Assembly: GCA_016125375.1 (NCBI GenBank) | Contig: WGLU01000001.1 | Location: 124,001 to 188,000 of the forward strand | Direction of reading: 5' to 3' | Source: Pseudomonadota bacterium | Lineage (GTDB): Bacteria; Pseudomonadota; Alphaproteobacteria; UBA1280; RI-95 | Length of the DNA: 64,000 nucleotides | Shown: positions 1,612 to 17,862 of the stretch, piece by piece | Layout of the letters: each line of letters opens with the position of its first letter | Numbering within the stretch: the stretch's first letter is position 1 | Notes under the pieces: model-generated | Told to the model about the DNA's origin: nothing | The model's database searches: none | Seen by the model: the letters and a program-made list of their open reading frames with translations, nothing else | Translations under genes and position numbers: made by a program

Positions 1612-4599
1612 ATGACATTCCGCATCAAGGTGCTGACAAAGGTTAAAGACGCGCGCGCCGATGTGCTCAAAAGCCGTTTTGGTCTGTCAGGTCTCAAAAT
1701 CATGGATGTGTACACCGTAGATAAACCCTTTGCGCCGGATGTGCGCAAGCGTATCGCCCACGCCCTCCATAACCCCGTCGCGCAGGAGGTGTTTGTGCTG
1801 GGTGACGATATGGCCGAACCCGCAGGCTATACCCAGATGCTGGGGCCCTTTGACAGTGCCGTGGAAACCGGTTACCTGCCTGGCGTGACCGATAATGTGG
1901 GCAAAACCGCCCGCCAGTTGATAGAGGACTTGACCGGTGAAGCCTTTGCTATAGAGGAAGGCGTGTACAGCGGGCGTATTTACCTGATTCAGGGTGACCA
2001 GAAGCTGAACAAGGCCAAACAACTCGCCCACGACTTGACCAACCCGCTGGTCCACAGCGCCCATGTGATGAGCAAGGCAGATATGGCAGCGGGCAAGCGT
2101 GTTGTAAGCGTGCCGCGTGTGCGCCTTGCCGGTAGCGATACGGTGCTGAGCGTCGATCTGAATGTGGATGATACGGCGCTGGGTACCATCGGCAAGCAGG
2201 GGATTACAGGCGCGGATGGTAAACTCCGTGGCCCGCTGGGGCTGGACCTGCCTGCCATGAAAGTGATACAGGCACACTATGCCAAGCTGGGGCGCAACCC
2301 GACCGATGTGGAGCTGGAAACCCTTGCGCAGACATGGTCCGAGCACTGCAAGCACACCATCTTCGCTGCCAAAATGGATAACCTGAGCGAAGGGTTGTAC
2401 AAGGGTTACATCAAAAAGGCGACCGAAGAGGTCCGTCGCCGCAAGGGCAAGGACGATATTTGCGTCAGCGTTTTTTCCGACAATGCAGGCGGCATTGTTT
2501 TTGATGACGACTGGGTGATTTGCGACAAGGTGGAAACCCATAACACGCCCAGCGCACTAGATCCCTTTGGCGGCGCGATGACCGGCATTGTGGGTGTTAA
2601 CCGGGATTGTATCGGCTTTGGTCTGGGTGCCAAACCCATCCTCAACCGCTACGGTTTTTGTCTGGCGTACCCCGAGAACCGCCACGAACTTTTCCGTGAT
2701 GCCAAACGCAAACAGCCGCTGCCCAGCGCCCATGCCATTATGGATGGGGTGATAAAGGGCGTGGAGGCGGGCGGTAACTGTTCCGGCATTCCCACACCAC
2801 AGGGCTTTTTGTATTTTGACGACCGCTACCGCGCCAAGCCGCTGGTCTTTTGCGGCACCATAGGTCTGTTGCCCCGCACCCTGAACGGCAAGCCGGCTCA
2901 CGAGAAGAAGGCCAACCCCGGTGATGTTATCATCATGGCGGGTGGCCGCGTGGGGGCGGATGGTATTCACGGGGCAACATTCTCGTCCGAAGCGCTGGAT
3001 GAAGGCTCGCCCGCAACAGCGGTACAGATTGGCGACCCGATTACGCAGAAAAAGCTCTCCGACGCCCTCCTGAGGGAGGTTCGTGGGCAGGGGCTCTACA
3101 CCAGTATTACCGATAACGGCGCGGGTGGCCTGTCCTCATCCGTCGGTGAAATGGGACGCGAAAGCGGCGGGTTCGAGGTTGACCTCGACAAGGTTCCCCT
3201 CAAATATGCCGGGCTGGAGCCGTGGCAGATATGGGTGTCGGAATCGCAGGAGCGGATGACGCTGGCCGTACCGCCAGCCCATGTGGACACGCTGATCGCC
3301 CTGCTGAAAAGCCGCGATGTGGAAGCTACACCCATCGGCACCTTTACCGACAGCGGCAAGGCAGTTGTGCGCTATAAGGGCAAGGTGGTGATGGAGATGG
3401 CGATGGCGTTCCTCCATGACGGCCTGCCGCAAAAAGAACTGAAAACACGCATTGCGCCACCGCTGAGCGTCGAGCCGGAGATTGACCTGCCTGAAGACCC
3501 TGCCGATGTGGAAGAGGCGCTGCTGGACATGCTCGCCCACCCGAACATACGCAGTCATGCCTTTGTCAGCACGCTGTTCGATCACGAGGTGCAGGGCACA
3601 TCTGTCCTCAAACCTCTGCAAGGTGCAGGGCAGGTGAACGGCGATGCGACGATCATTCGCCCGCTGCCGACAAGCTGGAAGGGGGTTGCTGTCTCTCAGG
3701 GCATATTCCCGCGCTATGGCGATATTGATACCGCGGCCATGACGGCTGTGGGGATAGACTTTGCTATCCGCGCCATCATCGCCGCAGGTGGGGATATGGA
3801 TAATATTGCCCTGCTGGATAACTTCTGCTGGTGCAGTCCGGACGACCCCAAGCGCCTGTGGCAGCTGACCCGTTCCGCCAAGGCCTGCTACGAATACGCC
3901 GTGCAGTTCGAGGTGCCGTTCATCAGCGGCAAGGACAGCATGTATAACGACTTCAAGGGCTACGACCATACAGGAGAGGCGATTAAGTTGTCTGCCCCGC
4001 CAACCGTGCTCATTTCAGCCGTAGGTGTTGTTCCTGATGTCCGCAAGGTTGTCAGTCTTGAGCCTAAAATGCGTGGCGACCATGTGTACGTGCTGGGGTT
4101 GACGGGCGACGAACTGGGCGGGTCTATTTTCTACGATCTGTTTGACGAGCTTGGCCGTAAAACACCGCAGGTGTTCGGGCGCGAGGCGCGCAACCTGTAT
4201 CAGGCTATCAGCAAGGCAACGGCCAAAGAGCTGGTTGCCTCCGCATTGCCATTAGGTCGTGGCGGTCTTGCCGTTGCCGCTGGTAAGGCTGTTGTGGCGG
4301 GTGGTTTAGGCCTCAAGCTCAACCTGGCGGATGTGCCCACCACCGAGGATGTGGTGCGCGATGATACGATTCTGTTCAGCGAGTCTGCCAGCCGGTTGCT
4401 GGTGACCGTGGCACCCGAGCACAAGAATGCCTTTGAAAAGCTGATGCACGGCGTGGACTGGGCGCGCATTGGTGTGGTGATTGACGAGCCGGAACTGATT
4501 ATCCACGGTACCGATGCCGAGGTAACATTCATGTGGGAACGTGCCGAGCTGGAAGAGGCCTACAAAACCCCTTACGAAGGATTTGCAAGCAATGTCTGA
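1612..4599 (+). CDS. purL: Phosphoribosylformylglycinamidine synthase, long PurL (PurS-like N-terminus plus PurL)
   Basis: Synthetase subunit that converts FGAR, ATP and glutamine-derived ammonia to FGAM in purine synthesis. At 995 residues it is far longer than the stand-alone PurL of about 740 residues. The first 80 or so residues look like a PurS-type segment, followed by a linker and the FGAM-synthase core with TWSEHCKH near residue 241 and ATP-binding Gly-rich stretches such as DNGAGGLSSSVGEMG. There is no C-terminal glutaminase domain; that is supplied by the next gene, whose start overlaps this stop by 8 bases. From memory this long-PurL plus separate PurQ arrangement is typical of deltaproteobacteria rather than of most alphaproteobacteria, which carry separate purS, purL and purQ. 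Confidence 0.94.
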   Translation: MTFRIKVLTKVKDARADVLKSRFGLSGLKIMDVYTVDKPFAPDVRKRIAHALHNPVAQEVFVLGDDMAEPAGYTQMLGPFDSAVETGYLPGVTDNVGKTARQLIEDLTGEAFAIEEGVYSGRIYLIQGDQKLNKAKQLAHDLTNPLVHSAHVMSKADMAAGKRVVSVPRVRLAGSDTVLSVDLNVDDTALGTIGKQGITGADGKLRGPLGLDLPAMKVIQAHYAKLGRNPTDVELETLAQTWSEHCKHTIFAAKMDNLSEGLYKGYIKKATEEVRRRKGKDDICVSVFSDNAGGIVFDDDWVICDKVETHNTPSALDPFGGAMTGIVGVNRDCIGFGLGAKPILNRYGFCLAYPENRHELFRDAKRKQPLPSAHAIMDGVIKGVEAGGNCSGIPTPQGFLYFDDRYRAKPLVFCGTIGLLPRTLNGKPAHEKKANPGDVIIMAGGRVGADGIHGATFSSEALDEGSPATAVQIGDPITQKKLSDALLREVRGQGLYTSITDNGAGGLSSSVGEMGRESGGFEVDLDKVPLKYAGLEPWQIWVSESQERMTLAVPPAHVDTLIALLKSRDVEATPIGTFTDSGKAVVRYKGKVVMEMAMAFLHDGLPQKELKTRIAPPLSVEPEIDLPEDPADVEEALLDMLAHPNIRSHAFVSTLFDHEVQGTSVLKPLQGAGQVNGDATIIRPLPTSWKGVAVSQGIFPRYGDIDTAAMTAVGIDFAIRAIIAAGGDMDNIALLDNFCWCSPDDPKRLWQLTRSAKACYEYAVQFEVPFISGKDSMYNDFKGYDHTGEAIKLSAPPTVLISAVGVVPDVRKVVSLEPKMRGDHVYVLGLTGDELGGSIFYDLFDELGRKTPQVFGREARNLYQAISKATAKELVASALPLGRGGLAVAAGKAVVAGGLGLKLNLADVPTTEDVVRDDTILFSESASRLLVTVAPEHKNAFEKLMHGVDWARIGVVIDEPELIIHGTDAEVTFMWERAELEEAYKTPYEGFASNV

Positions 4600-5398
4600 A
4601 CCACGGGTACTGGTGCTGAGCGGGTACGGCCTGAACTGCGAGGATGAAACCCTGCACGCCTTCAAGCAGGCGGGTGCGGTTGGCGATATTGTGCATGTGA
4701 ACGACCTGATTGATGACCCGGACCGGCTGGCCGAGTATCAGATACTGGCTATTCCCGGGGGATTCTCCTTCGGGGACGATACGGGTTCGGGCAGTGCGCT
4801 GGCCGTGCGGCTGCGCGAACATCTGGGACAGCAGTTGCTGGATTTTGTCGCGTCCAAAAAGCTGGTCATCGGTATTTGTAATGGGGCGCAGGTGCTGGTG
4901 AACCTTGGTCTGGTACCGGGGTTTGACGAGAGCCTCCACCGCGATGCCGCCCTGCTGGCCAATGCAACCAACCGCTACCAGTGCCGCTGGGTTCACCTTA
5001 AAGTGAATGCGAGCAACCGCTCGCCGTGGCTGGTGGGTATAGATGAGCTGTTCATCCCCGTCGCGCATGGCGAGGGCAATTTCATGCTGGCGCCGGAGGC
5101 GCTTGACCTCGTGCGTGAACGGGATATGGTCGCCGCGCGTTATATCGACGTGCAGGGGCACCGTGCCGGTGGCAAGTTCCCCGCCAACCCGAACGGCAGT
5201 ACGGACGACATGGCCATGCTGACCGATACGACCGGGCGGGTGCTGGCCACCATGCCCCACCCGGAGCGGGCCATCGCCTTTACCCAACGTCCGGACTGGC
5301 CGCTGAAAAAAGAACAGCTGCGCCGTGCGGGCGACAAAATACCGGCTGCTGCCGACGGGTTGAAGATCTTTAAAAATGCTGTGGCGTATTTTCAGTAA
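4592..5398 (+). CDS. purQ: FGAM synthase glutaminase subunit PurQ
   Basis: Class I glutamine amidotransferase that feeds ammonia to PurL. The start at 4592 (MSEPRVLVLSGYG) is preferred over an in-frame ATG 51 bases upstream because GAAGGA lies about ten bases before it and the beta-strand of the domain begins there. The nucleophile elbow GICNGAQVL (Cys near residue 95) and the C-terminal MPHPERA His-x-Glu are present. At 268 residues it is longer than the 220-230 residue PurQ of the PurS/PurL/PurQ type and fits the form that partners with a long PurL. The overlap with purL implies translational coupling. Confidence 0.93.
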   Translation: MSEPRVLVLSGYGLNCEDETLHAFKQAGAVGDIVHVNDLIDDPDRLAEYQILAIPGGFSFGDDTGSGSALAVRLREHLGQQLLDFVASKKLVIGICNGAQVLVNLGLVPGFDESLHRDAALLANATNRYQCRWVHLKVNASNRSPWLVGIDELFIPVAHGEGNFMLAPEALDLVRERDMVAARYIDVQGHRAGGKFPANPNGSTDDMAMLTDTTGRVLATMPHPERAIAFTQRPDWPLKKEQLRRAGDKIPAAADGLKIFKNAVAYFQ

Positions 5399-5442
5399 TG
5401 TTATTGCCAAAACCTTTCCGTATCCGCTGGAGGAAACATATC

Positions 5443-6354
5443 ATGCACCTGCTCCTTGCTGTCCCTGCCGTATCCGGCGCCTACACATATGCGGAAGTGA
5501 AGCGGCTGGAGGCCGCATTTCCGCCAAACGGCCAGTTTGTCACTGTGGGGGGCCATAAGGTGCACTACGTGGAGCGTGGCATTGGCAGGCCTATTGTCCT
5601 CATGCACGGGGCAAACAGCACGGCGCAGGATTTTGTCTTCAGCCCAATTTTTGATGAACTGGCCAAGACGCACCGGGTTATTGCGGTAGACCGCCCGGGT
5701 TATGGTTACAGCGAGCGCTTTATCGGTGCCGAAACACCGGCGGCCCAGGCGCGGCACCTGCATGCTTTTCTGGAGCAGAAGAACATCGAAAAGCCTGTGC
5801 TGGTGGGGTTCTCGTGGAGCGGTGCGCTGGTTGCCTCCTACGCTGTACAGTTTCCGGACAGTCTGACCGGGCTGGTTGTGATTAACGGCGCAACGCACCC
5901 GTGGCCGCTGCCCGATAGCTGGATTGATAAGGCAGGCAATACACCGCTGTTGGGCGAGCTGATGGCGTGGACGCTGACCATGCCGCTTGGAAAAGCCAAG
6001 ATTCCCGGTGGCGTGAAACGGGTCTTCAGCCCCAACCCAGTCCCTGCATGGTATGGCAGGATTCCCATGGATATGATTCTACGGCCCGGGCAGTTCCTTG
6101 CCAATTCTACAGATATGATCAACCTCAAATCTGCTGCTGCCGCCCAAAAGGACAGCTACGCAAACATTACCACGCCTACGGTTATTCTGGTGGGTGAGGA
6201 GGACCGTGTCGCCTCCCCGAAAATCCACTCGGAGCCGTTGCATGAAGCGGTCAAAGGCTCGCGCCTTATCCGCGTCAAAGGGGCGGGGCATCCGCTGCAC
6301 CATACCCACCCCGCTGTTGTTGTGAGTGCGATTGAAAGTCTGCTCAGCGAATAG
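5443..6354 (+). CDS. Alpha/beta hydrolase, possibly membrane-anchored
   Basis: A 303-residue alpha/beta-fold hydrolase. The start at 5443 has GGAGG about eight bases upstream, better than the in-frame ATG at 5398. The hydrophobic N-terminus (MHLLLAVPAVSGAYTY) may be a signal anchor. Visible features are the oxyanion strand IVLMHGAN, the nucleophile elbow GFSWSG near residue 123 and the late catalytic His in GAGHPLHH. It resembles haloalkane-dehalogenase or epoxide-hydrolase-like members, but the substrate cannot be told. It follows purQ closely without being part of purine synthesis, and may be read from the same transcript. Confidence 0.8.
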   Translation: MHLLLAVPAVSGAYTYAEVKRLEAAFPPNGQFVTVGGHKVHYVERGIGRPIVLMHGANSTAQDFVFSPIFDELAKTHRVIAVDRPGYGYSERFIGAETPAAQARHLHAFLEQKNIEKPVLVGFSWSGALVASYAVQFPDSLTGLVVINGATHPWPLPDSWIDKAGNTPLLGELMAWTLTMPLGKAKIPGGVKRVFSPNPVPAWYGRIPMDMILRPGQFLANSTDMINLKSAAAAQKDSYANITTPTVILVGEEDRVASPKIHSEPLHEAVKGSRLIRVKGAGHPLHHTHPAVVVSAIESLLSE

Positions 6355-6384
6355 GTCTTGCATCTTCTGCCAGAGATACGTATC

Positions 6385-6409
6385 TTTATTTCGGTAATAT
6401 TGAAATAAA
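6385..6409. promoter_or_regulatory. Inverted-repeat operator upstream of the OYE gene
   Basis: A 25-bp perfect inverted repeat with 8-bp arms TTTATTTC and GAAATAAA around a 9-base centre ending in AATATT. It ends 12 bases before the ATG of the Old Yellow Enzyme gene, next to the ribosome binding site. The same arms, spacing and centre end occur at 18427-18447 beside the ArsR-type regulator. Operator function is inferred. Confidence 0.7.
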
Positions 6410-6421
6410 AGGAATCGTCCC

Positions 6422-7540
6422 ATGTCCGCTACCCTGTTCGACAGTATAAAAGTAGGTGACCTGACTGTGCCAAACCGCTTGGTCATGGCGCCGCTAACCC
6501 GCATGCGCAGCAAACAGCCTGGCAATGTGCCGTGGAGCCTGAACGCCACGTACTATGCCCAGCGTGCATCGGCAGGGTTGATTGTTTCCGAAGCTACACA
6601 GGTTATGCCGGAAGGGCAGGGGTATCCTGCAACGCCGGGCATCCACAGTGCCGAACAGGTTAACGGGTGGAAGCTGGTAACCGATGCTGTTCATAAAGCC
6701 GGCGGCCATATCTTTTTGCAATTGTGGCATGTGGGACGGGTTTCGCATTCGTCCTTCCAGCCCGGCGGTGTGCTGCCTGTTGCGCCCTCGGCAATTGCTA
6801 TTAACGGCACGGGCATGACGGCCGACTGGAAACAGGAACCGTTCCAAACGCCCCGCGCTCTGGAACTGGGCGAGATTCCCGGGATTATCCAGGCCTACCG
6901 CCAGGGTGCGGAAAATGCCAAGGCAGCAGGCTTTGACGGTGTAGAGGTGCACGGCGCCAATGGCTATCTGCTCGAGCAGTTCCTGCAGGACGGGACGAAC
7001 AAACGGACCGACAGCTACGGCGGCAGCAAGGAAAACCGTGCACGACTGTTGCTGGAGGTTGTGGACGCCGTTATTGGTGTATGGGGCAAAGGGCGCGTTG
7101 GGGTGCGGTTGTCACCTTACGGCACAACAAACGATATGCATGACAGTGACCCGATGACGCTCTACACCTACGTACTGGCAGAGCTGGACAAGCGCGGCGT
7201 TGCCTATGCGCATATTATCGAGCCACGCTCGTCCGGTTCCGGTCAGGGCAAGGCACCGACGGAAGGCGCACCGGAAACAGCCAAGCTGTTCCGCAAGGCC
7301 TTTAAGGGCATCTTGATTTCAGCCGGCGGTTATACACCTGAAACGGCCAAACAGGTTGTGGACCAGGGCTATGCCGATATGGTGGCATTCGGCCGTTACT
7401 TTATCTCCACGCCCGACCTGCCTGCGCGCATCAAGGCCGGTGTGGCACTTACCCCGTATGACCGCAGCACATTCTATGGCGGGACGGAGAAAGGCTATAC
7501 GGACTATCCGATTATGGATAAACAGGCCAAATCTGCCTGA
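6422..7540 (+). CDS. Old Yellow Enzyme family alkene reductase (N-ethylmaleimide reductase type)
   Basis: FMN-dependent NAD(P)H oxidoreductase of 372 residues that reduces activated C=C bonds in electrophiles such as enones, maleimides or nitro compounds. The TIM-barrel N-terminus (VPNRLVMAPLTRMRS), the GRVSH motif and the signature HGANGYLLEQFL with following DSYGG and RLLLEVV are all clear, as in NemA and plant OPR-type enzymes. The ribosome site AAAAGGAA overlaps the edge of an inverted repeat that is shared with the ArsR/SDR intergenic region. Expression is therefore likely to be controlled by that regulator in response to reactive electrophiles. A terminator follows directly. Confidence 0.93.
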   Translation: MSATLFDSIKVGDLTVPNRLVMAPLTRMRSKQPGNVPWSLNATYYAQRASAGLIVSEATQVMPEGQGYPATPGIHSAEQVNGWKLVTDAVHKAGGHIFLQLWHVGRVSHSSFQPGGVLPVAPSAIAINGTGMTADWKQEPFQTPRALELGEIPGIIQAYRQGAENAKAAGFDGVEVHGANGYLLEQFLQDGTNKRTDSYGGSKENRARLLLEVVDAVIGVWGKGRVGVRLSPYGTTNDMHDSDPMTLYTYVLAELDKRGVAYAHIIEPRSSGSGQGKAPTEGAPETAKLFRKAFKGILISAGGYTPETAKQVVDQGYADMVAFGRYFISTPDLPARIKAGVALTPYDRSTFYGGTEKGYTDYPIMDKQAKSA

Positions 7541-7542
7541 TG

Positions 7543-7570
7543 AAAAGACCGCCGGAAGGCGGTCTTTTTT
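7543..7570. terminator. Rho-independent terminator after the OYE gene
   Basis: Stem AAAGACCGCC / GGCGGTCTTT with a short GGAA-type loop and a T-run on the plus strand; an A-run on the other side allows it to work for the converging minus-strand operon too. The minus-strand gene's TAA stop overlaps its right edge. Confidence 0.88.
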
Positions 7571-8396
7571 AGCGGACATTCCATTTGGCTGTGGCAGCGG
7601 GCGGTCTGGCCCAGAAGATATGCCCGAAGGACAAAACAATGAACAGGGCAATGAACTGGTAGTAATAGAACTCCCAATGGCGCAGTGCCAGTGCCAGCAC
7701 ACCCAGTGTAATGCCGTAGGCCCACTGCGCCTTTGGTGCGCGGGGCGAAGTTTGGGGGTCGGTCAGCATCAGGAAGACGAAAATAAGGGTGCTGGTATTC
7801 ACCTCCGGCCCGATAACCCAAAGCGGGTGATACCCCATTGTCGCGCCAATGGGTACGCCAACCATCAGAATGCCGGCAAAGTATCCCAGTGTGGCCCGCC
7901 AGCTGTTCCCCCGCCATGTGGCCAGAGGGCCAAATGTGCAAATGGTCAGGATGGTCCAGAACCCGGTGGAAAACACATCGGTCCGGTAATCCAGCAGGTT
8001 AGGCATGGTGAGGATGGCACACACGATGGCAAAGTTCGTGGGGTTATAAATATGACGGCCATGCTGGTCGAGCAGGAAGTACTTGGCCAATACCCCCAGC
8101 GTGCTCAGGAAACCGTAGAACCACCACTCGGTAGAGCGCACAAGAATCAGGGCACCTGCGGCCAGAACATAGGCCGAGAGAACACGGTCATAAATACGCA
8201 GGTTTTCGCCGTGTTTGCGTGACAGGCAGGCAATGGCAACCTCGGTCACAATAGCCGCTCCGAAGGCCAGCGCAACTTGTGTGAGCGAGCGCTGCATACT
8301 GTAAAGGCTCATCGCCAATACAATTAGGCACGTATGGTTCAGGGCCAGAAAATACCTGGGGTCAATGGCGCGGATAAAGGTCAGCAGCGTCTTCAT
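7569..8396 (-). CDS. RnfD/NqrB-like integral membrane protein
   Basis: A 275-residue protein with about eight to ten membrane segments, related to the NqrB/RnfD/RnfE family. The family-like landmarks are NPTNFAIV (compare FNPAMSARV in the true RnfD at 46295) and FVFLMLTDPQTSP (compare the RnfD motif around IVTDPVTAP). The Ser/Thr-Ala-Thr flavinylation site of RnfD is not visible, so it may not carry covalent FMN there. Its start overlaps the stop of the upstream FG-GAP gene by ATGA, so the two are translated together. A role in electron transfer or as a membrane scaffold for the partner is inference. Confidence 0.75.
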   Translation of the reverse strand: MKTLLTFIRAIDPRYFLALNHTCLIVLAMSLYSMQRSLTQVALAFGAAIVTEVAIACLSRKHGENLRIYDRVLSAYVLAAGALILVRSTEWWFYGFLSTLGVLAKYFLLDQHGRHIYNPTNFAIVCAILTMPNLLDYRTDVFSTGFWTILTICTFGPLATWRGNSWRATLGYFAGILMVGVPIGATMGYHPLWVIGPEVNTSTLIFVFLMLTDPQTSPRAPKAQWAYGITLGVLALALRHWEFYYYQFIALFIVLSFGHIFWARPPAATAKWNVR

Positions 8397-10219
8397 ACGG
8401 CTTCTCCTTTGCCGTAAACCAACTGATTGTACTGGTTCAGGTGCAGGTTATCCGGCTTGAAGACTTCGTGATAGCCGTCCGGCCAGCGGACCAGAATGCC
8501 GAAACCAATCGTTTTGTCTCCCAAGCCAAAGTGCAGTCGCGGATCAGCCTGTGCAAGGTGGCCATTAGTGGGGAACAGCTCGCGCAGAACAGGCTGCCCG
8601 TCACTGCGCATCAGGGTAACCCGGGCACCGATAGGCACGCGGTGACCGGCAGGGCCGACAAGATCAATCCCAATCCAGTTCCCCTGAGGGGGGGTGAGGT
8701 TATGGTACAGCATAAGCGGACCGCCCATGTTGGCCACAACAGCGTCCATACGACCATCGTTGTCGATATCGACCAGCGTCATGCTGCGCCCGTTCTCGGT
8801 ATCCGTAATACCGGCTGTTTGGGCCACATCATAGAAATGGCCATCCTTTTGCCAGAACATGCAACTATGCTGAAAACTATAAAGCTGGTAATTGTCAAAA
8901 GCAGGCAGCATGTGCTGCATATTTTCCCGCAGGAAGAGGGGTGTGCTACGGATCTCATTCCGCGCATAAGCAAAGGACTTGGATGATTTATAGTCTTTGG
9001 CGTCCTTGCCTTTGACGCGTCCATTGGTCACGAAAAGGTCTAGTTGCCCATCATTGTCGAAGTCAGCGAACTTGGCCGACCATGCCCAGCCGCAGCGGTC
9101 GACGCCATACTCGGCGGACTCTTTCTCGAACGCCGTGCTTATTTTGTCGTGGCGCATCCACAGCAGGTTGTCCTTACGTGAAGAAGGCGGGGTATAGCCG
9201 TTGGAGATGAACAAGTCCAGCTTGCCGTCCTGATTCACATCAATAAAGTCTACATTCATGCCGGAGAAGCCGTGCAGATAGCGTGGAATACTCTCGCCCG
9301 TGACGTTGCGGAAGTTTCTGCCGTCAATGTTCAGGTACATATCGTCATAGCTGTAGTCATTTGTCGCAACCACATCAACCCACCCGTCGTCATTGATGTC
9401 GGATACACCAACAGACTGTGTATGGCTGCCATTCGGGCGCATCTTCTCGACGTCATAAACGGCAAAACCACCGGGCGTCCCGTACAGAATGTCGTTACGG
9501 GCGCCGTTATGCTGGATGTCATCCGGGCTGAACAGGGGGTCAAAAGGGGTAAAATCGTAGCCTTTCTCAAGGAACTTTTTACTGTGATAGTTACCTACAT
9601 AAACATCCAGCCAGCCGTCACGGTTAAAATCTGCAAGGGCAAGGGCGCGTGGATAGGAGCAGTAGTGCGGCAGAAAGGCCTTGGTATAGTCGGCAAATTT
9701 ACCGTCCGGTTGCTGCAGGTAAACCGAGTGGCAGCCGTATCTGCCAATGAGCACATCCGTCAGCCCATCCTGATTGATGTCAAACCAGGCCGATACTGTA
9801 GGCGGTGACGCGGCGTCCACATCATCCAGCCCTACATCTTTGGCAACATCGGTAAAGCTGGTACCGCCATTATTACGGAAAAGCTTGTTGGGCTCTTTGG
9901 GATTATTGTTAATCACAAAAATATCCATAAAACCGTCGCCGTTATAGTCCACAACCGCGACGGAGGGCGGCATGCTGTAAAGGGGCACAAACCCTCTGGC
10001 ATCAGGGTTTTGCGAATAGTAGGTATGTGTGTTGATGAGCCCCAGTTTCCGGGCAGTTTCCTCAAATTTGAGAGGGGATTCCTTCAGTATATTCTCGGGC
10101 GCTTGCCGGTATTGCAGATCGGTATAATCATTCAGGCGCTTATAGTTGAGCAAGCCTGCAAGCAGGAGCGTACCCACGGCAATGCCTGTGTATTTGCTTC
10201 TGATGAGGTAAAGAGCCAT
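8393..10219 (-). CDS. CRTAC1-type FG-GAP/VCBS repeat protein with ASPIC/UnbV domain
   Basis: A 608-residue exported or membrane-anchored protein. An N-terminal hydrophobic helix (residues about 9-24) is followed by a chain of VCBS/FG-GAP beta-propeller repeats with Ca-binding loops of the D-x-N/D-x-D-G type (DYNGDGFMD, DINQDGLTD, DFNRDGWLD, DVNQDGKLD, DFDNDGQLD, DIDNDGRMD). The C-terminal 90 or so residues match the ASPIC/UnbV domain (GNWIGIDLVG, FPTNGHLAQADPRLHFGLG, VRWPDG). It would sit outside the cytoplasmic membrane. Coupling to the RnfD-like gene suggests a joint complex. The function of this protein family in bacteria is not settled. Confidence 0.88.
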   Translation of the reverse strand: MALYLIRSKYTGIAVGTLLLAGLLNYKRLNDYTDLQYRQAPENILKESPLKFEETARKLGLINTHTYYSQNPDARGFVPLYSMPPSVAVVDYNGDGFMDIFVINNNPKEPNKLFRNNGGTSFTDVAKDVGLDDVDAASPPTVSAWFDINQDGLTDVLIGRYGCHSVYLQQPDGKFADYTKAFLPHYCSYPRALALADFNRDGWLDVYVGNYHSKKFLEKGYDFTPFDPLFSPDDIQHNGARNDILYGTPGGFAVYDVEKMRPNGSHTQSVGVSDINDDGWVDVVATNDYSYDDMYLNIDGRNFRNVTGESIPRYLHGFSGMNVDFIDVNQDGKLDLFISNGYTPPSSRKDNLLWMRHDKISTAFEKESAEYGVDRCGWAWSAKFADFDNDGQLDLFVTNGRVKGKDAKDYKSSKSFAYARNEIRSTPLFLRENMQHMLPAFDNYQLYSFQHSCMFWQKDGHFYDVAQTAGITDTENGRSMTLVDIDNDGRMDAVVANMGGPLMLYHNLTPPQGNWIGIDLVGPAGHRVPIGARVTLMRSDGQPVLRELFPTNGHLAQADPRLHFGLGDKTIGFGILVRWPDGYHEVFKPDNLHLNQYNQLVYGKGEAV

Positions 10220-10313: not shown

Positions 10314-10405
10314 TGGCGGAGAGTGAGGGATTCGAACCCTCGATAGGGAAATCGCCCTATACCACCTTAGCAGGGTGGCGCCTTCAGCCGCTCGGCCAAC
10401 TCTCC
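10314..10405 (-). tRNA. tRNA-Ser (anticodon GCU)
   Basis: Type II tRNA of 92 nt with encoded CCA. The acceptor stem GGAGAGT/ACTCTCC, the long variable arm, GGTTCGAATCC in the T-arm and a seven-base anticodon loop CTGCTAA giving GCT (reads AGC/AGU) are all present. Confidence 0.96.
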
Positions 10406-10526
10406 ACGTAGAGCCAGCACAGAATGCAGTTTTTATGGGGTGCTGTCAACCGCGCATTTTCAGATTATCTGCAATAAATTAGCGCTTGTGCCAAGCGGTT
10501 AAATCCAGTAAAAAGTAAACCCATGT

Positions 10527-10602
<76 letters not shown>

Positions 10603-10980: not shown

Positions 10981-11406
10981 TCAGCAGCCGCCGCCACCGC
11001 CACCGCCACTGCCGCCGCTGCCGTCACCACTACCGCCGCTGCCGCCGCTGCCGGCGCCACTTCCGCCATCATCGCTGCCACCGCCATCACCGCCGAGGCT
11101 GTTGTTGGCGTAAGTATATACTGTGATGGTTTCTTCTTTGGGTTGGTATGTGGAAATATAGTCCTCAAGGCGCGAAATCTCGTAGTCAACCACATCCTTT
11201 ACCGTATCGTTCACGCGGGTAATGTCTTCCTGCGTTTTTTCGGTTTCTACACCACCGATCAGTTGTGACGACAAGGCAGTGTCCGAAAGGTCACCCGTGT
11301 TGCCACCGATGACGCGGCCTGCACGCTCCATTTCATCTGCCTGTACCTGTGGTGCTACAAGCGCGAAGCAGCTCATCAAGCCGATTAGCCATACAAAATA
11401 AGGCAT
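10981..11406 (-). CDS. Small exported protein with Gly/Ser tail ending in Cys
   Basis: A 141-residue protein (start at the second ATG, which has AAAGGA seven bases upstream; the ATG nine bases earlier overlaps that site). A signal peptide runs to about VQA-DEM. The middle is polar with a short helical stretch (TVKDVVDYEISRLEDYI) and a beta-like TITVYTYA. The last 40 or so residues are almost only Gly, Ser and Asp and end in seven Gly and a terminal Cys. It is the last gene of a minus-strand run after a Sco-like gene and a second exported protein with a Gly-Cys tail. No family was recognised. The lone terminal Cys could be a metal or disulfide site (inference). Confidence 0.65.
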   Translation of the reverse strand: MPYFVWLIGLMSCFALVAPQVQADEMERAGRVIGGNTGDLSDTALSSQLIGGVETEKTQEDITRVNDTVKDVVDYEISRLEDYISTYQPKEETITVYTYANNSLGGDGGGSDDGGSGAGSGGSGGSGDGSGGSGGGGGGGC

Positions 11407-11430
11407 GCCATACATCCTTTCGTGACTGTT

Positions 11431-11772
11431 CTAACCGCAACCGCCGCCATCGGCATTGTCGCCGCTGTCGTCTGTGTTGGGGTCATATCCTTGTAGCTCC
11501 ACAGTGACCGTTTTATAAATGATAGTTTCCAGATTGTTGATCGTGCGGCGCAGTTGCTCCAGCTTTGCGGAACGGGATGTGATGGATGCATTATTGATGG
11601 AGAGCTGGCCTTCCAGAGCATTCATGACCTGCTCGTAGGTGTTGGCAATGCTCTCGACCTTTTGCGCATCACTGGATTCGCTCCCGGAGCCGGTGCGCAC
11701 TGTGTTGTCCTGCGCCATGGCGTAAGAGCCAAAGACGGCAAGAAGCGCAAGACTGGTGTGGCTGAATGGCAT
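11431..11772 (-). CDS. Small exported coiled-coil protein with Gly-Cys tail
   Basis: A 113-residue protein whose ATG lies one base past the stop of the Sco-like gene. A signal peptide ends at AMA-QDN. It is followed by a heptad-like helix (about residues 40-85, with LEQLRRTINNLETII), a beta-like TVTVEL segment and an acidic Gly-rich tail ending in GGGCG. The order signal peptide, helix, TVTV-type strand, Gly-rich tail with Cys at or next to the C-terminus matches the following gene, so the two may be distant paralogues. Function unknown. Confidence 0.65.
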   Translation of the reverse strand: MPFSHTSLALLAVFGSYAMAQDNTVRTGSGSESSDAQKVESIANTYEQVMNALEGQLSINNASITSRSAKLEQLRRTINNLETIIYKTVTVELQGYDPNTDDSGDNADGGGCG

Positions 11773-11773
11773 A

Positions 11774-12685
11774 CTAACGGTCACCCCCTAGGTTTGTAGG
11801 TGTATAAAAGTAAGGGTTTTGGACCTTTTTCTCGGTTACAGGTGCTGTAGCCACGGTTTCCGGCTCATCTGCCTCCGGCAGGGCATCCGCCATAAGGACA
11901 CTCCGGAGCTCAGCAACAGAAGAGTCCTCTTGCGCCAGATCAAATCGGCCGTAGAACTGCGCTTCAGGGTTTATGTAGAACGTGGTTGTTGTATGGCGGA
12001 AGAGCCAGCTGTCCTGGTCGGCCTGATTGCCAAAATCCACCTTGTCGGCAACAACTGCAAAGTTCTGCATGACTTTTGTCATTTCATCCGGGGCATTCTG
12101 CGGTGATTTGACACCCTTGAATGTATCGTCGAAGGCAGTTACAAAATTGCCTAGTTTCTTGCTGTTGTCTTTCGGATCAACAGTAAAGAAATAGATATCA
12201 GTCCGGGCGCGTTCGGAACGGGGGAGGGACTGATACAGGCTCGCCAGGTGGTCCAATGTATTTGGGCACATGTCAGGACAATTGGTGAATCCGAAATAAA
12301 TCAGTGACTTGCGGCCTTCAAGGCTTTGGCGGGTCAATACCTTACCGTTATGGTCTACCAGTTTGAAGTCACTGACACGGGCAAGGCCAAAGTCGTCGGG
12401 TAGTTGTTTCTCACGAACGGGGACCCGGCTCCCATTATTGCCTGCCGCATACTTTGCCGCCAGAAGGGTGTACAGCTCATCAATGGTTTGACTGAGCTTG
12501 GTGGTTTCACCCTTTTGCAGGATAAGTTCTTCGTCAATTTTGCGCCCCATGTCGAGAATCTTGACGTTTTTTTCCTGAACTTTCGTCTCAATCCCGCTGG
12601 TTGTTTGAGCGTATCCGGAAGTCGCGCAAGCTGCCCACAATGTTGTGGCCGAGAATACAGTTGCAAGTAAATACTTAAGCTCCAT
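11774..12685 (-). CDS. Sco/SenC-like thiol-copper protein with N-terminal coiled coil
   Basis: A 303-residue exported protein (signal peptide to about GYA-QTT). It has an N-terminal predicted coiled coil (residues about 30-75), then a thioredoxin-fold Sco1/SenC/PrrC domain with the CPDMCP metal/redox motif after YFGFTN, the FFTVDP segment and the late conserved His in WLFRHTTTTFYI. Together these give the Cys-x3-Cys plus His copper site. The C-terminal 40 residues are an extension rich in Pro, Glu and Thr. Classical Sco proteins deliver copper to cytochrome oxidase CuA, but no oxidase genes are nearby. The neighbours are two exported proteins with Cys-ending tails. Confidence 0.85.
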   Translation of the reverse strand: MELKYLLATVFSATTLWAACATSGYAQTTSGIETKVQEKNVKILDMGRKIDEELILQKGETTKLSQTIDELYTLLAAKYAAGNNGSRVPVREKQLPDDFGLARVSDFKLVDHNGKVLTRQSLEGRKSLIYFGFTNCPDMCPNTLDHLASLYQSLPRSERARTDIYFFTVDPKDNSKKLGNFVTAFDDTFKGVKSPQNAPDEMTKVMQNFAVVADKVDFGNQADQDSWLFRHTTTTFYINPEAQFYGRFDLAQEDSSVAELRSVLMADALPEADEPETVATAPVTEKKVQNPYFYTPTNLGGDR

Positions 12686-12768
12686 GCCGCACCTAACAGA
12701 TGACAAAATTAAGCCATTATAACCCAGATATGTATGTTGTCAGCTGCTAACAAGATAGCTGACGTATA

Positions 12769-15700
12769 TCAGGAGGTTAAGGCTGTCAGTGCATGGTCGT
12801 TCAGGTCGAGGCCGAGCTGAATAAAGATGGTCGCGCCATTGCCCGTAAAGGTTGCGTAGTCGTTGCCGTTAATCTGCACATCACCACCACGGAACAGGGT
12901 GTCCGTTGTCAGGACATTGTCCCCTGCATCACCACTGATAGTCATGATGCCTGTGTCAGAAACACGCAGCACATCGGCGATCTTGAGCGTCATGGTATTG
13001 TCACCGCTGCCGTTGGTCATGTCTACGGCTTCGATGCCGCGGATAGCCTTCAGGCTCAGGTCCAATGTTTGGCTCTGGTTGGCAAGGAGAAGGGTATCTT
13101 CACCTGTATCACCCCATATCCAGCTGTCAACACTATCGAAAACCAGAATGTCATTGCCGTTACCGCCACGGAGGTAATCGACCCCGTCACCGCCGTCCAG
13201 ATAGTCATTACCATCCATGCCCGAGAGGACGTCATTACCGGCGCCGCCGTAGATGATGTCATTACCACTGCCGGCTTGAACGTTGTCATTGCCGTCGCCG
13301 CCGTAAATGGTGTCGTTACCGTCGCCGCTGACAAGCGTGTCGTTACCGGCACCGCCATCTAGGTAGTTGTTGCCACCATTCGCGAGCAGAGCACCGGATT
13401 TGCTGTGAGAGGCATAAAGCCAGTCATCGCCATCACCGCCGTACAGGGTGTCATTACCGGTGCCACTGTAGATTTTGTCATTACCACCCAGTCCGTAGAT
13501 GGTATCGCTGCCGTCTGTGCCGATAATGGTATCGGCATTGTTGGTGCCGTTGATTGTCAGCAATGCGTCGCTAATCTGCGCAACTGTCAGGGACTGTCCT
13601 GCTTCGGCAAAGGTAAACGTCTGGATTGGGTTACTGGCCCACTGGTCAATGTGCAGGGTATCGCCCGTGCTCATGACTTCAATAACCACAGAGCTACCAT
13701 TGCGATAGAACGTCAGGTCGTTGGCGAAAATGCCGGTGCCAAAGGATACGGTATTGATTTGGCCGGCTTCTTGCGTGTCATAAACGCTGACGCTGTTGTC
13801 GCCCAGGTTGAAGAGGTAGGTATCGCTGCCAGCGCCGCCGTACAGGTGGTCCGTACCGGAACCACCGCTCAGGATGTCATTCCCGCCATCACCATAGATA
13901 AAGTCGTCACCTGCGCCACCATACAGACGGTCATTCCCCTGACTGGCCTGTACAACGCCATAAATGTCGCGGTCGCCGTACAGGAAGTCATTACCATCGC
14001 CACCGTAGATGATGTCATTACCGGAGTGACCGAAAATTTTATCATTCCCGGCCAAGCCATAAATAGTGTTGTCACCCGAGGTGCCGCCGAGGCGCAAGTC
14101 GTTGCCTGCCGTACCATAAATGGTCATCAGGCTTTGATTGATGTCTGCAACGGTCAGGCTCTGGCCCGCTTCCACGAAAGTGAAAGCTTGAATCGGGCTG
14201 CTGTTCCAGCTGTCGATCTGTACGCGGTCATTGGTTGTACCGATGCGGATGACAAGCGAGTTGCCATCACGGGTAATATTCAGGTCATTGGCAAAAATAC
14301 CCGCGCCAAAAGCAATAGTGTTGGTCTGGCCGATTTCTGCACTGTCATAAACAGCGTTCAGGCCATCACCGATGTTCATGGTGTAGGTGTCGCTGCCTGC
14401 GCCGCCATACATCTGGTCGTCACCTGCACCACCCATGAGGATGTCGTTACCGCCATCACCGTACAGGAAGTCATCACCAGCGCCGCCGTCAAGGATGTCA
14501 TCACCCTGATTGGCCTGCAGCGCGCCTGTACCTGAGCGGTCACCGTACAGGAAGTCGTTGCCAGCGCCGCCGATCAGCTTGTCGTTACCCGAACCGCCAT
14601 AGACCTTGTCGTTACCGTCAAGGGCATAGATAGTATCGTTTTTGTCCGTACCTGCAAGGCTATCGATACCATTGGTACCGTAGAACGTTTGCGGTCCGTT
14701 GTTAATGTCGTTCAAGGTCAGGCTCTGGCCGGACTCTGTGAACACAAAACGATCGATAGGGTGTGTGCTGTCCCAGTTGGACAGACGCAGAATATCGCCT
14801 GTGCTGATAACACGGATATCAACGTGCTCACCATTGCGCACAATTTCCAGATCACTGCGGAAAATACCCGCGCCAAACACTACCGTGTTTGTTTTACCTG
14901 CTTCGGCACTGTCATAGACCCGGATCATCTGGTCGCCGATGTTGAAGAGGTAGGTATCGCTGCCTGCGCCGCCATACAGGTGGTCGTCGCCTTTACCGCC
15001 AATCAGAATGTCATTCCCGTTGCCGGCGTAAATAGAGTCATTACCGCCAAGGCCGTAAATGACGTCATTCTTGGCTGTACCGTTAATGCGGTTGTCGCCC
15101 TCGGTACCGTAGATTTCCACCGGTGGAATGTAAATCTTGCCGCCATTACCCAGAATGGTGCCAATATCACCCGGAACAACGGTTGTGCCGTCGGCAAAAG
15201 CAATGCTGCCCATGGTATTGGCGCTGTTTGCGAACCAGCCCTTAACGGTGACAGCATCGTTTGTGCCGTCGATGGCAATGACCAGATCGTTGCCATTCTG
15301 GCTGAATGTAGCCGCTTCAAAGTTAATGCCGCTGCCAAATATCAGGCGGTTCACATCTGTGCCGCTGACGGTATCAGTAATGGTATCGCGGCCGAATCCT
15401 GCGTCCAGAATATACGTGTCCGAGCCAGTGCCGCCGAACAGCTGGTCATTACCAGTGCCGCCGTTCAGGGTGTCATTACCGGCTTCGCCGTAAAGGATGT
15501 CATCGCCGCCGCGGCCGTTCAGAATATCATTGCCTGTGCCGCCGTAGAGTTTATCGCCAATACCGCCGCCTGTAATAGTGTCATTACCGGCACCACCGTA
15601 CACATCAATGGTGGAATCTGCGGAATCGTTGGTGAAGATGTCATCCCCACCGTTGAGGTTGACCCAGGCACCGGCCAGAGGCAGGCTCGTCGTGCTGACA

Positions 15701-17862
15701 AGGCTATCAATGCCCAGCGTGCCGTCGCCAAAGCGGAAGTTCTCTACATCACGTACGGTGTCCGTGCCGTCGCGTCCGGCAACATTGTCTGTAACTGTGT
15801 AGGAGCCGTCATTATTGCGGGTGATCGTGTACTCGCTGCGCAGACCGGCATAAACAGCCGTGTCGTTACCGCCGCCGCCGTAAATGGTGTCGTTACCTGC
15901 GCCACCGGAAATGGTGTCATTACCATCGCCAGAGGTGTAGTAGCGGTAATCGGCGTAAATCACATCGTCCCCGGCACCGCCAGAGATAATATCGTCCCCG
16001 CCGCCGGCGATAATCGTATCGTTACCTGCGCCGCCAGAAATCCGGTCGGCACCAGCGCGGTTGGTCTGCCAGTCAAAATCGCCATAAATGGTGTCGTCAC
16101 CGTCACCACCCAGAATGTCGTCGTTACCGTCGCCGCCGGTAATGGTGTCATTGCCGGCACCGCCATCCAGAACATCGTTACCGGGATTGTTAATTTCCCA
16201 GCCAAAATCACCCTGAATGGTGTCGTTACCGTTACCACCGACAATCGTATCATTGCCGCGGCCACCAACCAGAAGATCATTGCCATCACCGCCATAGATG
16301 ATGTCATCGCCACCGGTGTTGGTGTCCCAGTTAAAATCGCCGTAAATCTCGTCGTTGCCAGCACCGCCGATAATCTGGTCGTTACCGCCGCCGCCTGTTA
16401 CATAGTCATTGCCGGCGCCTGCATTGATAATGTCGTTACCAAAATCGTTGGTATCCCAGTGCAGGTCACCATGCAGGGTGTCATTGCCATCGCCGCCGGA
16501 AATCGTGTTGTTACCCGCGCCACCTGAAATGGTGTCGTTACCCGAGGTTCCTACCAGAGTGTAGGTGGCCGGCTCGGTAATCTGGGCCGGGTTAATTGTG
16601 ATTCCCAGGTTGGTGTCGCTACGGCCAATGGTCCATGACCCGCTGATGCTAACAATGTCATTGCCACCAGTGGTGTCAGTCAGGTTATCCAGCGAGGTAT
16701 CAATATCCCCTGCAAGGCGGAATCCGTTTATGTCCTGACCGACGAAAGTCAGGGCGATTGTATCGTTACCAGTACCGCCACGAACCAGAGCTGCGCCATC
16801 ACGGTCAATAATCGTATCGCTACCGGCGCCGCCATCAAGAATATCGCCGTAACCGGCGCCACCGTCGATGTAGTCGTCTCCGGCAGAGGTCCAGATTACG
16901 TCATTGCCACTGCCGCCCATAACTGTAATGCTGCCATAGGTAAAGCGGTCGCTGGTCAGGTCAATAACGTCATTACCGGCACCGGCATCAATAATCTCGA
17001 TGGATGTGAAACGCGGGGTGCTGTTGGGGCCGCTGGAGTAGGGGTCGTCCAGGAAAATGGCATCATTGCCTGAACCCATAAGCAGCTGGTCGGTACCGTC
17101 ACCGCCGTCAAAAGCGTCATAGCTACGGTTGTAGCCGTTGATATCCACTTGTTGGCCAGTGACCGTGTTACGGGCGGACCAGCCGCTTGTCCATAGGGCG
17201 TCTGCGCTGTAGACAAGGGTATCGTTGCCAGCGCCGCCGGAAAGAACGTCTGTGCCGACACCGCCATCCAGATAGTCATCGCCGCCACCGCCGATCAGGG
17301 TGTCGTTGCCGGCACCGCCAAATGCACGAATGCCCGAGGTCGCGGAAGTGTTAATCAGGGTATCATTGCCACCGTTCAGGTTCACAACTGCGGTCGTGCC
17401 GCCAATCCAGGAACCGCGCAGGGTCACAACATCGTTGCCGCCGTTATTGTCGTTCAGGTTGTCCAACGTCGTGTCGCTGTCGCCACTGATGAGCAGGCTG
17501 CTAATATCTTGTCCGCTAAAAGTCAGGTCAATGGTGTCATTGCCTGCATCGCCCTGAATGTAGGTAGGGGTAGTCAGGGCGCCATTAAAATAAACAACAA
17601 TGCTGTCGTTCCCGTCACCGCCGCTCGCAACCTCCACACCATCTTCATCGTCGATCTGGTCGTTGCCGTCATCGCCGTACAGCTTGTCTTTTGCGCCCGT
17701 GCCGCCATCAATATTGTCGTTACCCTCGCCACCGCGCAGGGTATCGTCTCCACCCAGACCCTCAATGTGGTCGTTTCCCTTCAAGGCATCAATCACATCG
17801 GCATTTTCAGTGCCGACAATGTGATCATTCCCGTTTGAGGGGGTGTTGTTATCTTTGGCCAT
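12769..17862 (-). CDS. Giant RTX (hemolysin-type Ca-binding repeat) protein
   Basis: A 1697-residue secreted protein made almost wholly of GGxGxDxLx-type nonapeptide repeats, which form Ca-binding beta-rolls. Sub-structure: two copies of a segment with a D-T-x-LDNL core near residues 110-160 and 390-430; about five tandem 45-residue units with GDxxW-TN spacers (about residues 465-700); then four modules of about 190 residues starting at GSDTY, whose last three are close copies (GAGIF/GTGIF, SGQSLT/AGQSLT), spaced about 575 bases apart. No signal peptide is seen; the Asp/Leu-rich C-terminus (LGLDLNDHALTALTS) fits a type I secretion signal. No ABC exporter or outer-membrane channel gene lies nearby. 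Likely a surface or S-layer-like protein, or an adhesin; no enzymatic domain was recognised. Confidence 0.93.
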   Translation of the reverse strand: MAKDNNTPSNGNDHIVGTENADVIDALKGNDHIEGLGGDDTLRGGEGNDNIDGGTGAKDKLYGDDGNDQIDDEDGVEVASGGDGNDSIVVYFNGALTTPTYIQGDAGNDTIDLTFSGQDISSLLISGDSDTTLDNLNDNNGGNDVVTLRGSWIGGTTAVVNLNGGNDTLINTSATSGIRAFGGAGNDTLIGGGGDDYLDGGVGTDVLSGGAGNDTLVYSADALWTSGWSARNTVTGQQVDINGYNRSYDAFDGGDGTDQLLMGSGNDAIFLDDPYSSGPNSTPRFTSIEIIDAGAGNDVIDLTSDRFTYGSITVMGGSGNDVIWTSAGDDYIDGGAGYGDILDGGAGSDTIIDRDGAALVRGGTGNDTIALTFVGQDINGFRLAGDIDTSLDNLTDTTGGNDIVSISGSWTIGRSDTNLGITINPAQITEPATYTLVGTSGNDTISGGAGNNTISGGDGNDTLHGDLHWDTNDFGNDIINAGAGNDYVTGGGGNDQIIGGAGNDEIYGDFNWDTNTGGDDIIYGGDGNDLLVGGRGNDTIVGGNGNDTIQGDFGWEINNPGNDVLDGGAGNDTITGGDGNDDILGGDGDDTIYGDFDWQTNRAGADRISGGAGNDTIIAGGGDDIISGGAGDDVIYADYRYYTSGDGNDTISGGAGNDTIYGGGGNDTAVYAGLRSEYTITRNNDGSYTVTDNVAGRDGTDTVRDVENFRFGDGTLGIDSLVSTTSLPLAGAWVNLNGGDDIFTNDSADSTIDVYGGAGNDTITGGGIGDKLYGGTGNDILNGRGGDDILYGEAGNDTLNGGTGNDQLFGGTGSDTYILDAGFGRDTITDTVSGTDVNRLIFGSGINFEAATFSQNGNDLVIAIDGTNDAVTVKGWFANSANTMGSIAFADGTTVVPGDIGTILGNGGKIYIPPVEIYGTEGDNRINGTAKNDVIYGLGGNDSIYAGNGNDILIGGKGDDHLYGGAGSDTYLFNIGDQMIRVYDSAEAGKTNTVVFGAGIFRSDLEIVRNGEHVDIRVISTGDILRLSNWDSTHPIDRFVFTESGQSLTLNDINNGPQTFYGTNGIDSLAGTDKNDTIYALDGNDKVYGGSGNDKLIGGAGNDFLYGDRSGTGALQANQGDDILDGGAGDDFLYGDGGNDILMGGAGDDQMYGGAGSDTYTMNIGDGLNAVYDSAEIGQTNTIAFGAGIFANDLNITRDGNSLVIRIGTTNDRVQIDSWNSSPIQAFTFVEAGQSLTVADINQSLMTIYGTAGNDLRLGGTSGDNTIYGLAGNDKIFGHSGNDIIYGGDGNDFLYGDRDIYGVVQASQGNDRLYGGAGDDFIYGDGGNDILSGGSGTDHLYGGAGSDTYLFNLGDNSVSVYDTQEAGQINTVSFGTGIFANDLTFYRNGSSVVIEVMSTGDTLHIDQWASNPIQTFTFAEAGQSLTVAQISDALLTINGTNNADTIIGTDGSDTIYGLGGNDKIYSGTGNDTLYGGDGDDWLYASHSKSGALLANGGNNYLDGGAGNDTLVSGDGNDTIYGGDGNDNVQAGSGNDIIYGGAGNDVLSGMDGNDYLDGGDGVDYLRGGNGNDILVFDSVDSWIWGDTGEDTLLLANQSQTLDLSLKAIRGIEAVDMTNGSGDNTMTLKIADVLRVSDTGIMTISGDAGDNVLTTDTLFRGGDVQINGNDYATFTGNGATIFIQLGLDLNDHALTALTS

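Follow-up and report, generated by a model that had tools for sequence, protein, structure and literature searches.

A Sco-type protein encoded next to two exported proteins that end in a glycine-cysteine tail: a possible thiol module outside the cytoplasm

Besides binding copper, Sco proteins are able to serve as thiol-disulfide oxidoreductases; for one of them, ScoI, the thioredoxin TlpA is the reductant (PMC6696091). The DUF4266 proteins are small and secreted, carry a C-terminal CXC and are encoded in thioredoxin/DsbD gene clusters; a cycling of their redox state has been proposed (PMC8238504). In the window, which is the whole 64,000-nucleotide stretch of DNA analysed here, a Sco-like gene is accompanied by two genes, s1 and s2, whose exported products each end in a glycine-rich segment with one Cys. 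As the s1-s2 pair is duplicated in the genome and the end Cys residues persist in the copy, the genes may belong to a new extracytoplasmic thiol system that is specific to the lineage. The features are listed in Table 1.

Table 1. Positions of the features in the window and at two further loci of the same genome
Feature	Position	Strand	Remarks
Sco-like gene	11774..12685	-	303 aa; signal peptide, two-helix N-terminal domain and Sco thioredoxin-fold domain
Sco N-terminal helical domain	12383..12604	-	residues ~28-101; about 75 residues
SCO1/SenC domain	11954..12373	-	residues 105-244
s1	11431..11772	-	exported helical (coiled-coil-like) protein; GGGCG end; one Cys
s1 GGGCG end	11434..11448	-	codons; residues identical in the C4 paralogue
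s2	10981..11406	-	exported protein; Gly/Ser/Asp-rich tail; last residues are seven Gly and Cys
s2 Gly-rich tail	10984..11094	-	terminal Cys codon 10984-10986
Promoter-like site	12716..12743	-	CTGACA-16-TATAAT, 11/12; 5' of the Sco gene; consensus match only
Intrinsic-terminator-like stem-loop	10942..10967	-	3' of s2
s2-like protein fused to Hint domain	L076 (G000:C8:150000-162000) 4422-5156	-	Gly-Cys junction
Two adjacent exported proteins with C-terminal Hint domains	L086 (G000:C7:86000-100000) 5440-7059, 7222-8955	-	N-terminal KFFS..RGGAEGAK common to both

Operon layout and the Sco-like protein

The Sco-like gene, s1 and s2 are arranged head to tail in this order on the minus strand. The ATG of s1 at 11772 is located one base past the Sco stop codon, and the ORF is as given in the preliminary description, a coiled-coil exported protein ending in GGGCG; an alternative in-frame GTG at 11784 would overlap the Sco gene. 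The gap between s1 and s2 is 15-24 bases, set by the ATG chosen for s2, for which an alternative lies at 11415. Because a promoter-like site precedes the Sco-like gene and a terminator-like hairpin follows s2, the three genes appear to form one transcription unit. Promoter-like matches in the region are no more frequent than in shuffles, and terminator-like sites number 8 versus 3.1 expected. The codon-position base composition is gene-like in Sco and s1; in s2 the Gly codons distort it, but the s2 core resembles Sco.

The gene directly upstream (12769-17862, minus strand) encodes a 1697-aa protein composed mostly of RTX calcium-binding repeats. An operon shared with this gene was judged unlikely, with ~80 bases and the promoter-like site between them. 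The operon end is adjoined by tRNA-Ser and tRNA-Thr genes (10314-10602), the two RNA features found near the operon. The G+C content is 0.51-0.52 over 10-14 kb and about 0.57 in the flanks, and this tRNA-bearing, lower-G+C zone is a possible insertion site. Further along (7569-10219, minus strand), a gene for an RnfD/NqrB-like membrane protein shares bases with the end of an FG-GAP/UnbV_ASPIC gene, and these two also look like one operon.

The assignment of the first protein as Sco1/SenC-like, with CPDMCP and a late His, was borne out. The domain matches PF02630 with 103.9 bits (cut-off 22.8) over model positions 2-134 of 134. CPDMCP occupies residues 136-141 (CPDMC codons 12266-12280) and the late His is His231 (codon 11993-11995). 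Cys136, Cys140 and His231 align with the Cu ligands of solved Sco proteins (4wbj) and are invariant in seven homologues; the DPxRDT motif retains its Asp but lacks its Arg. Bradyrhizobium ScoI (4wbj) is the best PDB match both by sequence (E 2.1e-20) and in a Foldseek search with the Sco model (E 2.1e-13, TMt 0.84). The model has the thioredoxin-type fold and is confident in the Sco core, with block pLDDT values mostly of 84-97 and lower values at residues 211-230.

The N-terminus reads, by eye, as a cleavable signal peptide (GYAQ/TT), and the protein is apparently soluble. Between the signal peptide and the Sco domain lies a helical N-terminal domain, which was not found in the other Sco proteins of the alignment; its helices (residues 30-56 and 61-81) fall in a low-confidence part of the model. 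A stand-alone paralogue of this domain with 38% identity is encoded on contig C6, and a CxxC thioredoxin gene is located nearby. The same C6 locus (L045 5448-9702, plus strand) encodes three exported proteins, each about 410 aa long and lacking a Pfam match; the second and third are 25% identical and the first looks alike. One of the three has an HAVAH motif, which may be a zinc-peptidase relic.

No oxidase genes were found near the operon, as had been stated before; the only COX2 match of the genome is located on another contig, which lacks a Sco gene, and close to it are ORFs that read like Cox10 and Cox11. The genome contains three Sco genes, the window copy and two others whose N-termini look like ordinary membrane anchors; the seemingly cleavable signal peptide and the N-terminal domain set the window protein apart from these two. 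It could be argued that s1 and s2 are Cu(I) shuttles with which the Sco-like protein loads the cytochrome c oxidase encoded elsewhere, and both the intact metal ligands of Sco and the presence of a COX2 gene on a contig lacking Sco agree with this. However, the two other Sco proteins with ordinary-looking anchors could serve the oxidase, s1 and s2 contain no Met/His-rich metal motifs, and the operon holds no copper gene. Because two more ordinary Sco genes remain, copper delivery to the oxidase is less likely than a role of s1 and s2 as thiol carriers, and we regard it as rather improbable.

The Cys-tail proteins and their duplicate

s1 comprises a signal peptide, a long helix and a DGGGCG end. 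Its single-sequence model, which is of low confidence (pLDDT 65), consists of a single long helix (residues 38-97). s2 comprises a signal peptide, a helical-looking core and the Gly/Ser/Asp tail with seven Gly and Cys that was recognised in the preliminary description; the tail was found to be about 37 residues long. The signal peptides of the exported proteins in this work were judged by eye. The tails contain neither a membrane anchor nor a known sorting motif (no NCBIfam sorting-model match), and no convincing family match was found for s1 or s2 in Pfam, NCBIfam or PHROGs. A PHROG match of s1 to a spanin (E 0.005) was read as coiled-coil noise. A common origin of s1 with either s2 or the N-terminal domain of Sco is unsupported, as hhalign aligns the signal peptides only.

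A second adjacent s1-s2 pair in the same order (s1' and s2') was observed on contig C4 (L044). s1' shares 47% identity with s1 and keeps the GGGCG end; s2' shares 43% identity with s2 and keeps the GGGC end, with 39% identity over the core (E 3e-21, a single comparison). Because the C4 pair keeps the same ends, the Cys tails are more than chance. Each of the four predicted mature chains contains one Cys, always within the last two residues; by deduction, any disulfides would link separate chains. Across the genome, for which all statements rest on targeted searches, the GGG-Cys-stop pattern occurs at five places. Two are likely gene ends, namely s2 and its C4 paralogue; the other three end no gene-like ORF, and the backwards control pattern gives 2 matches. 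A Cys within the last two residues is present in 5 of 150 ORF calls from loci of the genome (s1 and s2 being two of the five), a set made by a greedy caller that missed s1' and s2'.

The C4 pair converges with two tandem genes for DsbA-like proteins, which each match Thioredoxin_4 in two stretches and are 21% identical to each other. Beyond these follow, in a row, another Sco gene and the gene for a CxxC thioredoxin, so that the C4 Sco gene is about 3 kb from s1'-s2' with two opposite-strand genes between. The earlier suggestion that the tail Cys residues are tied to the Sco thiol/copper site thus gained partial support, from the common operon in the window and from the Sco, thioredoxin and two DsbA-like genes on C4. 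The tandem DsbA-like proteins were seen in this genome alone among the matches listed; as a tracer of the system elsewhere they were set aside, as the outside matches listed cover one ordinary DsbA domain only.

In 385 genomes of the class, which include members of the order and no other genome of the source's family, neither s1 and s2 nor the N-terminal domain of Sco turned out to have relatives. The searches used s1 as a single sequence in 76 related genomes and profiles of two or three rows in the 385 class genomes. Plasmids and viral contigs likewise yielded no relatives for the queries tried. Marginal matches (E 0.002-0.008), of which the s2 one (L080) alone was inspected, look like chance helical matches. 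As far as the genomes searched extend, the system thus appears to be a lineage-specific orphan. With homologues found in none of the other genomes, the linkage between Sco and the tails rests on one genome, and a linkage derived from duplicates could partly reflect their copying history. The proposed conservation of this linkage is seen in the window and for the C4 pair; it does not extend to an s2-like gene on contig C8, which has no Sco neighbour.

These results raise the alternative that s1 and s2 are lineage-specific orphans with no common pathway, duplicated small exported proteins for which the Sco link is incidental. Their lack of homologues in the class genomes and plasmids would fit, and low-complexity Gly tails evolve easily. 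Nevertheless, the end Cys is kept in 4/4 copies despite identity down to 43-47%, and one of the only three Sco genes in the genome lies close to the second pair. This alternative is therefore considered unlikely.

An s2-like Hint protein and the possible use of the tails

The core of the C8 protein is only weakly similar to s2: in a search with a profile built from the two tail copies, it comes first among the 2295 other frames of the tested loci, but with an E value of 0.045. Shuffled sequences reach its alignment score in 1/2000 cases for s2' and 19/2000 for s2, and the C8 protein is tentatively considered a relative of s2. As in s2, its sole Cys is preceded by Gly; here, however, this Cys is the first residue of a Hint domain (PF05203, 33.9 bits, cut-off 32.1) with a Hedgehog-like GCF junction. 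Its TPEH presumably corresponds to the TxxH block of Hint domains. The chemistry of Hint domains is an acyl shift at their first Cys. A loss of the tail Cys in homologues, named earlier as an outcome that would refute the proposal, was not seen in the two s1-s2 pairs; in the C8 protein the Cys begins the Hint domain. The C8 gene directly follows a further tandem DsbA-like gene, which overlaps it by four bases. A 575-aa ORF on C8 (L076 1701-3428, plus strand) keeps the KFFS..RGGAEGAK motif of the two C7 Hint proteins and has a Gly/Cys-rich end instead of Hint. The link between Hint domains and the s2 tails is a lead only.

The main rival to the thiol-carrier model is a cross-linked surface scaffold, in which s1 and s2 are envelope proteins whose terminal Cys residues cross-link them into a surface layer or attach them to another molecule. 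The thioredoxin-fold proteins would merely catalyse disulfides, and the Gly-Cys end and the C8 Hint domain would be two routes to a covalent C-terminal linkage. The helical and Gly-rich make-up with a single end Cys is consistent with such a scaffold, as are the Hint domain after Gly-Cys on C8 and the exported C7 proteins that end in Hint too. Conversely, the operon includes no outer-membrane, sortase-like or secretion gene, the homology between the C8 protein and s2 is weak, and the tail has no membrane anchor or known sorting motif. We consider the scaffold somewhat unlikely. A further reading is a lineage-specific system in which the thiol module at the C-terminus of exported helical proteins is interchangeable (a Gly-rich tail with a final Cys, or a Hint domain that begins with this Cys) and dedicated Sco, thioredoxin and DsbA-like proteins control covalent coupling in the envelope; it has only a slim chance of being correct.

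By analogy with the Sco and DUF4266 proteins, a role as mobile thiol carriers is proposed here for s1 and s2, whose Cys residues would be reduced, oxidised or metallated by thioredoxin-fold partners. Both would be exported to the periplasm as helical proteins, where their helices probably pair or oligomerise and flexible glycine tails would hold out one reactive Cys each. Two tail Cys residues could then come together in a disulfide between chains or in a dithiol able to bind Cu(I), or a mixed disulfide could arise between a tail and a partner. The redox or copper state of the tails would be controlled by the apparently co-transcribed Sco-type protein through its CxxxC and His; at C4, the Sco, thioredoxin and DsbA-like proteins would do so. 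The intact Sco ligands, the one-base spacing, the terminator in common, the single Cys of each predicted mature chain and the end Cys kept in the duplicate pair are consistent with this model. So are the thioredoxin-fold neighbours at C4, at C8 (the tentative s2 relative) and at C6 (the stand-alone domain). On the other side, flexible Gly tails could fit any thiol use, and the C4 Sco gene is set apart from the tail genes by about 3 kb. A periplasmic thiol module, with s1 and s2 as exported carriers whose state is set by thioredoxin-fold partners, is thus a plausible reading that falls somewhat short of probable. The earlier view of the locus as a new metal-delivery or anchoring system exceeds the evidence; the locus is still more than an ordinary Sco operon.

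If the thiol-carrier model is correct, Sco-type proteins serve substrates other than respiratory oxidases, namely small secreted proteins with one thiol on a flexible tail. The locus would then offer a simple model of how thiols or copper are moved, or of how surface structures are built through disulfides, in a bacterial lineage that has been little sampled.

Comparison with known systems

The window Sco protein shares the domain, the CxxxCP motif and the late His with Bradyrhizobium ScoI (Blr1131) and other SCO1/SenC proteins. In contrast to these, it would have a seemingly cleavable signal peptide and a helical N-terminal domain in place of the membrane anchor, its DPxRDT motif lacks the Arg, and its operon partners are Cys-tail proteins. 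The s1 helix exhibits weak similarity to the N-terminal helical domain of CpoB (E 0.00055). However, its score of 20 bits against a cut-off of 383 is typical of any exported coiled coil, and s1 is too short for the remainder of CpoB. Among Hint and bacterial intein-like domains, that of the C8 relative begins exactly at its only Cys, whereas s1 and s2 have no Hint domain and stop right after Cys (s2) or Cys-Gly (s1).

The closest known kind is DUF4266 (PF14086), of which s1 and s2 are not members: neither matches PF14086 at E 1 and no match was found in the genome, in a search whose control was positive in Bacteroides ihuae. Like s1 and s2, the DUF4266 proteins, which occur in ApbE/DUF3570/thioredoxin/DsbD clusters, are small and exported, with Cys at the extreme C-terminus and thioredoxin-fold neighbours. 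In s1 and s2, a single Cys is present instead of CXC, the helical core is followed by a long Gly tail, and the partners are Sco and DsbA-like proteins. If the thiol-carrier model holds, the system described here is parallel to, and separate from, DUF4266.
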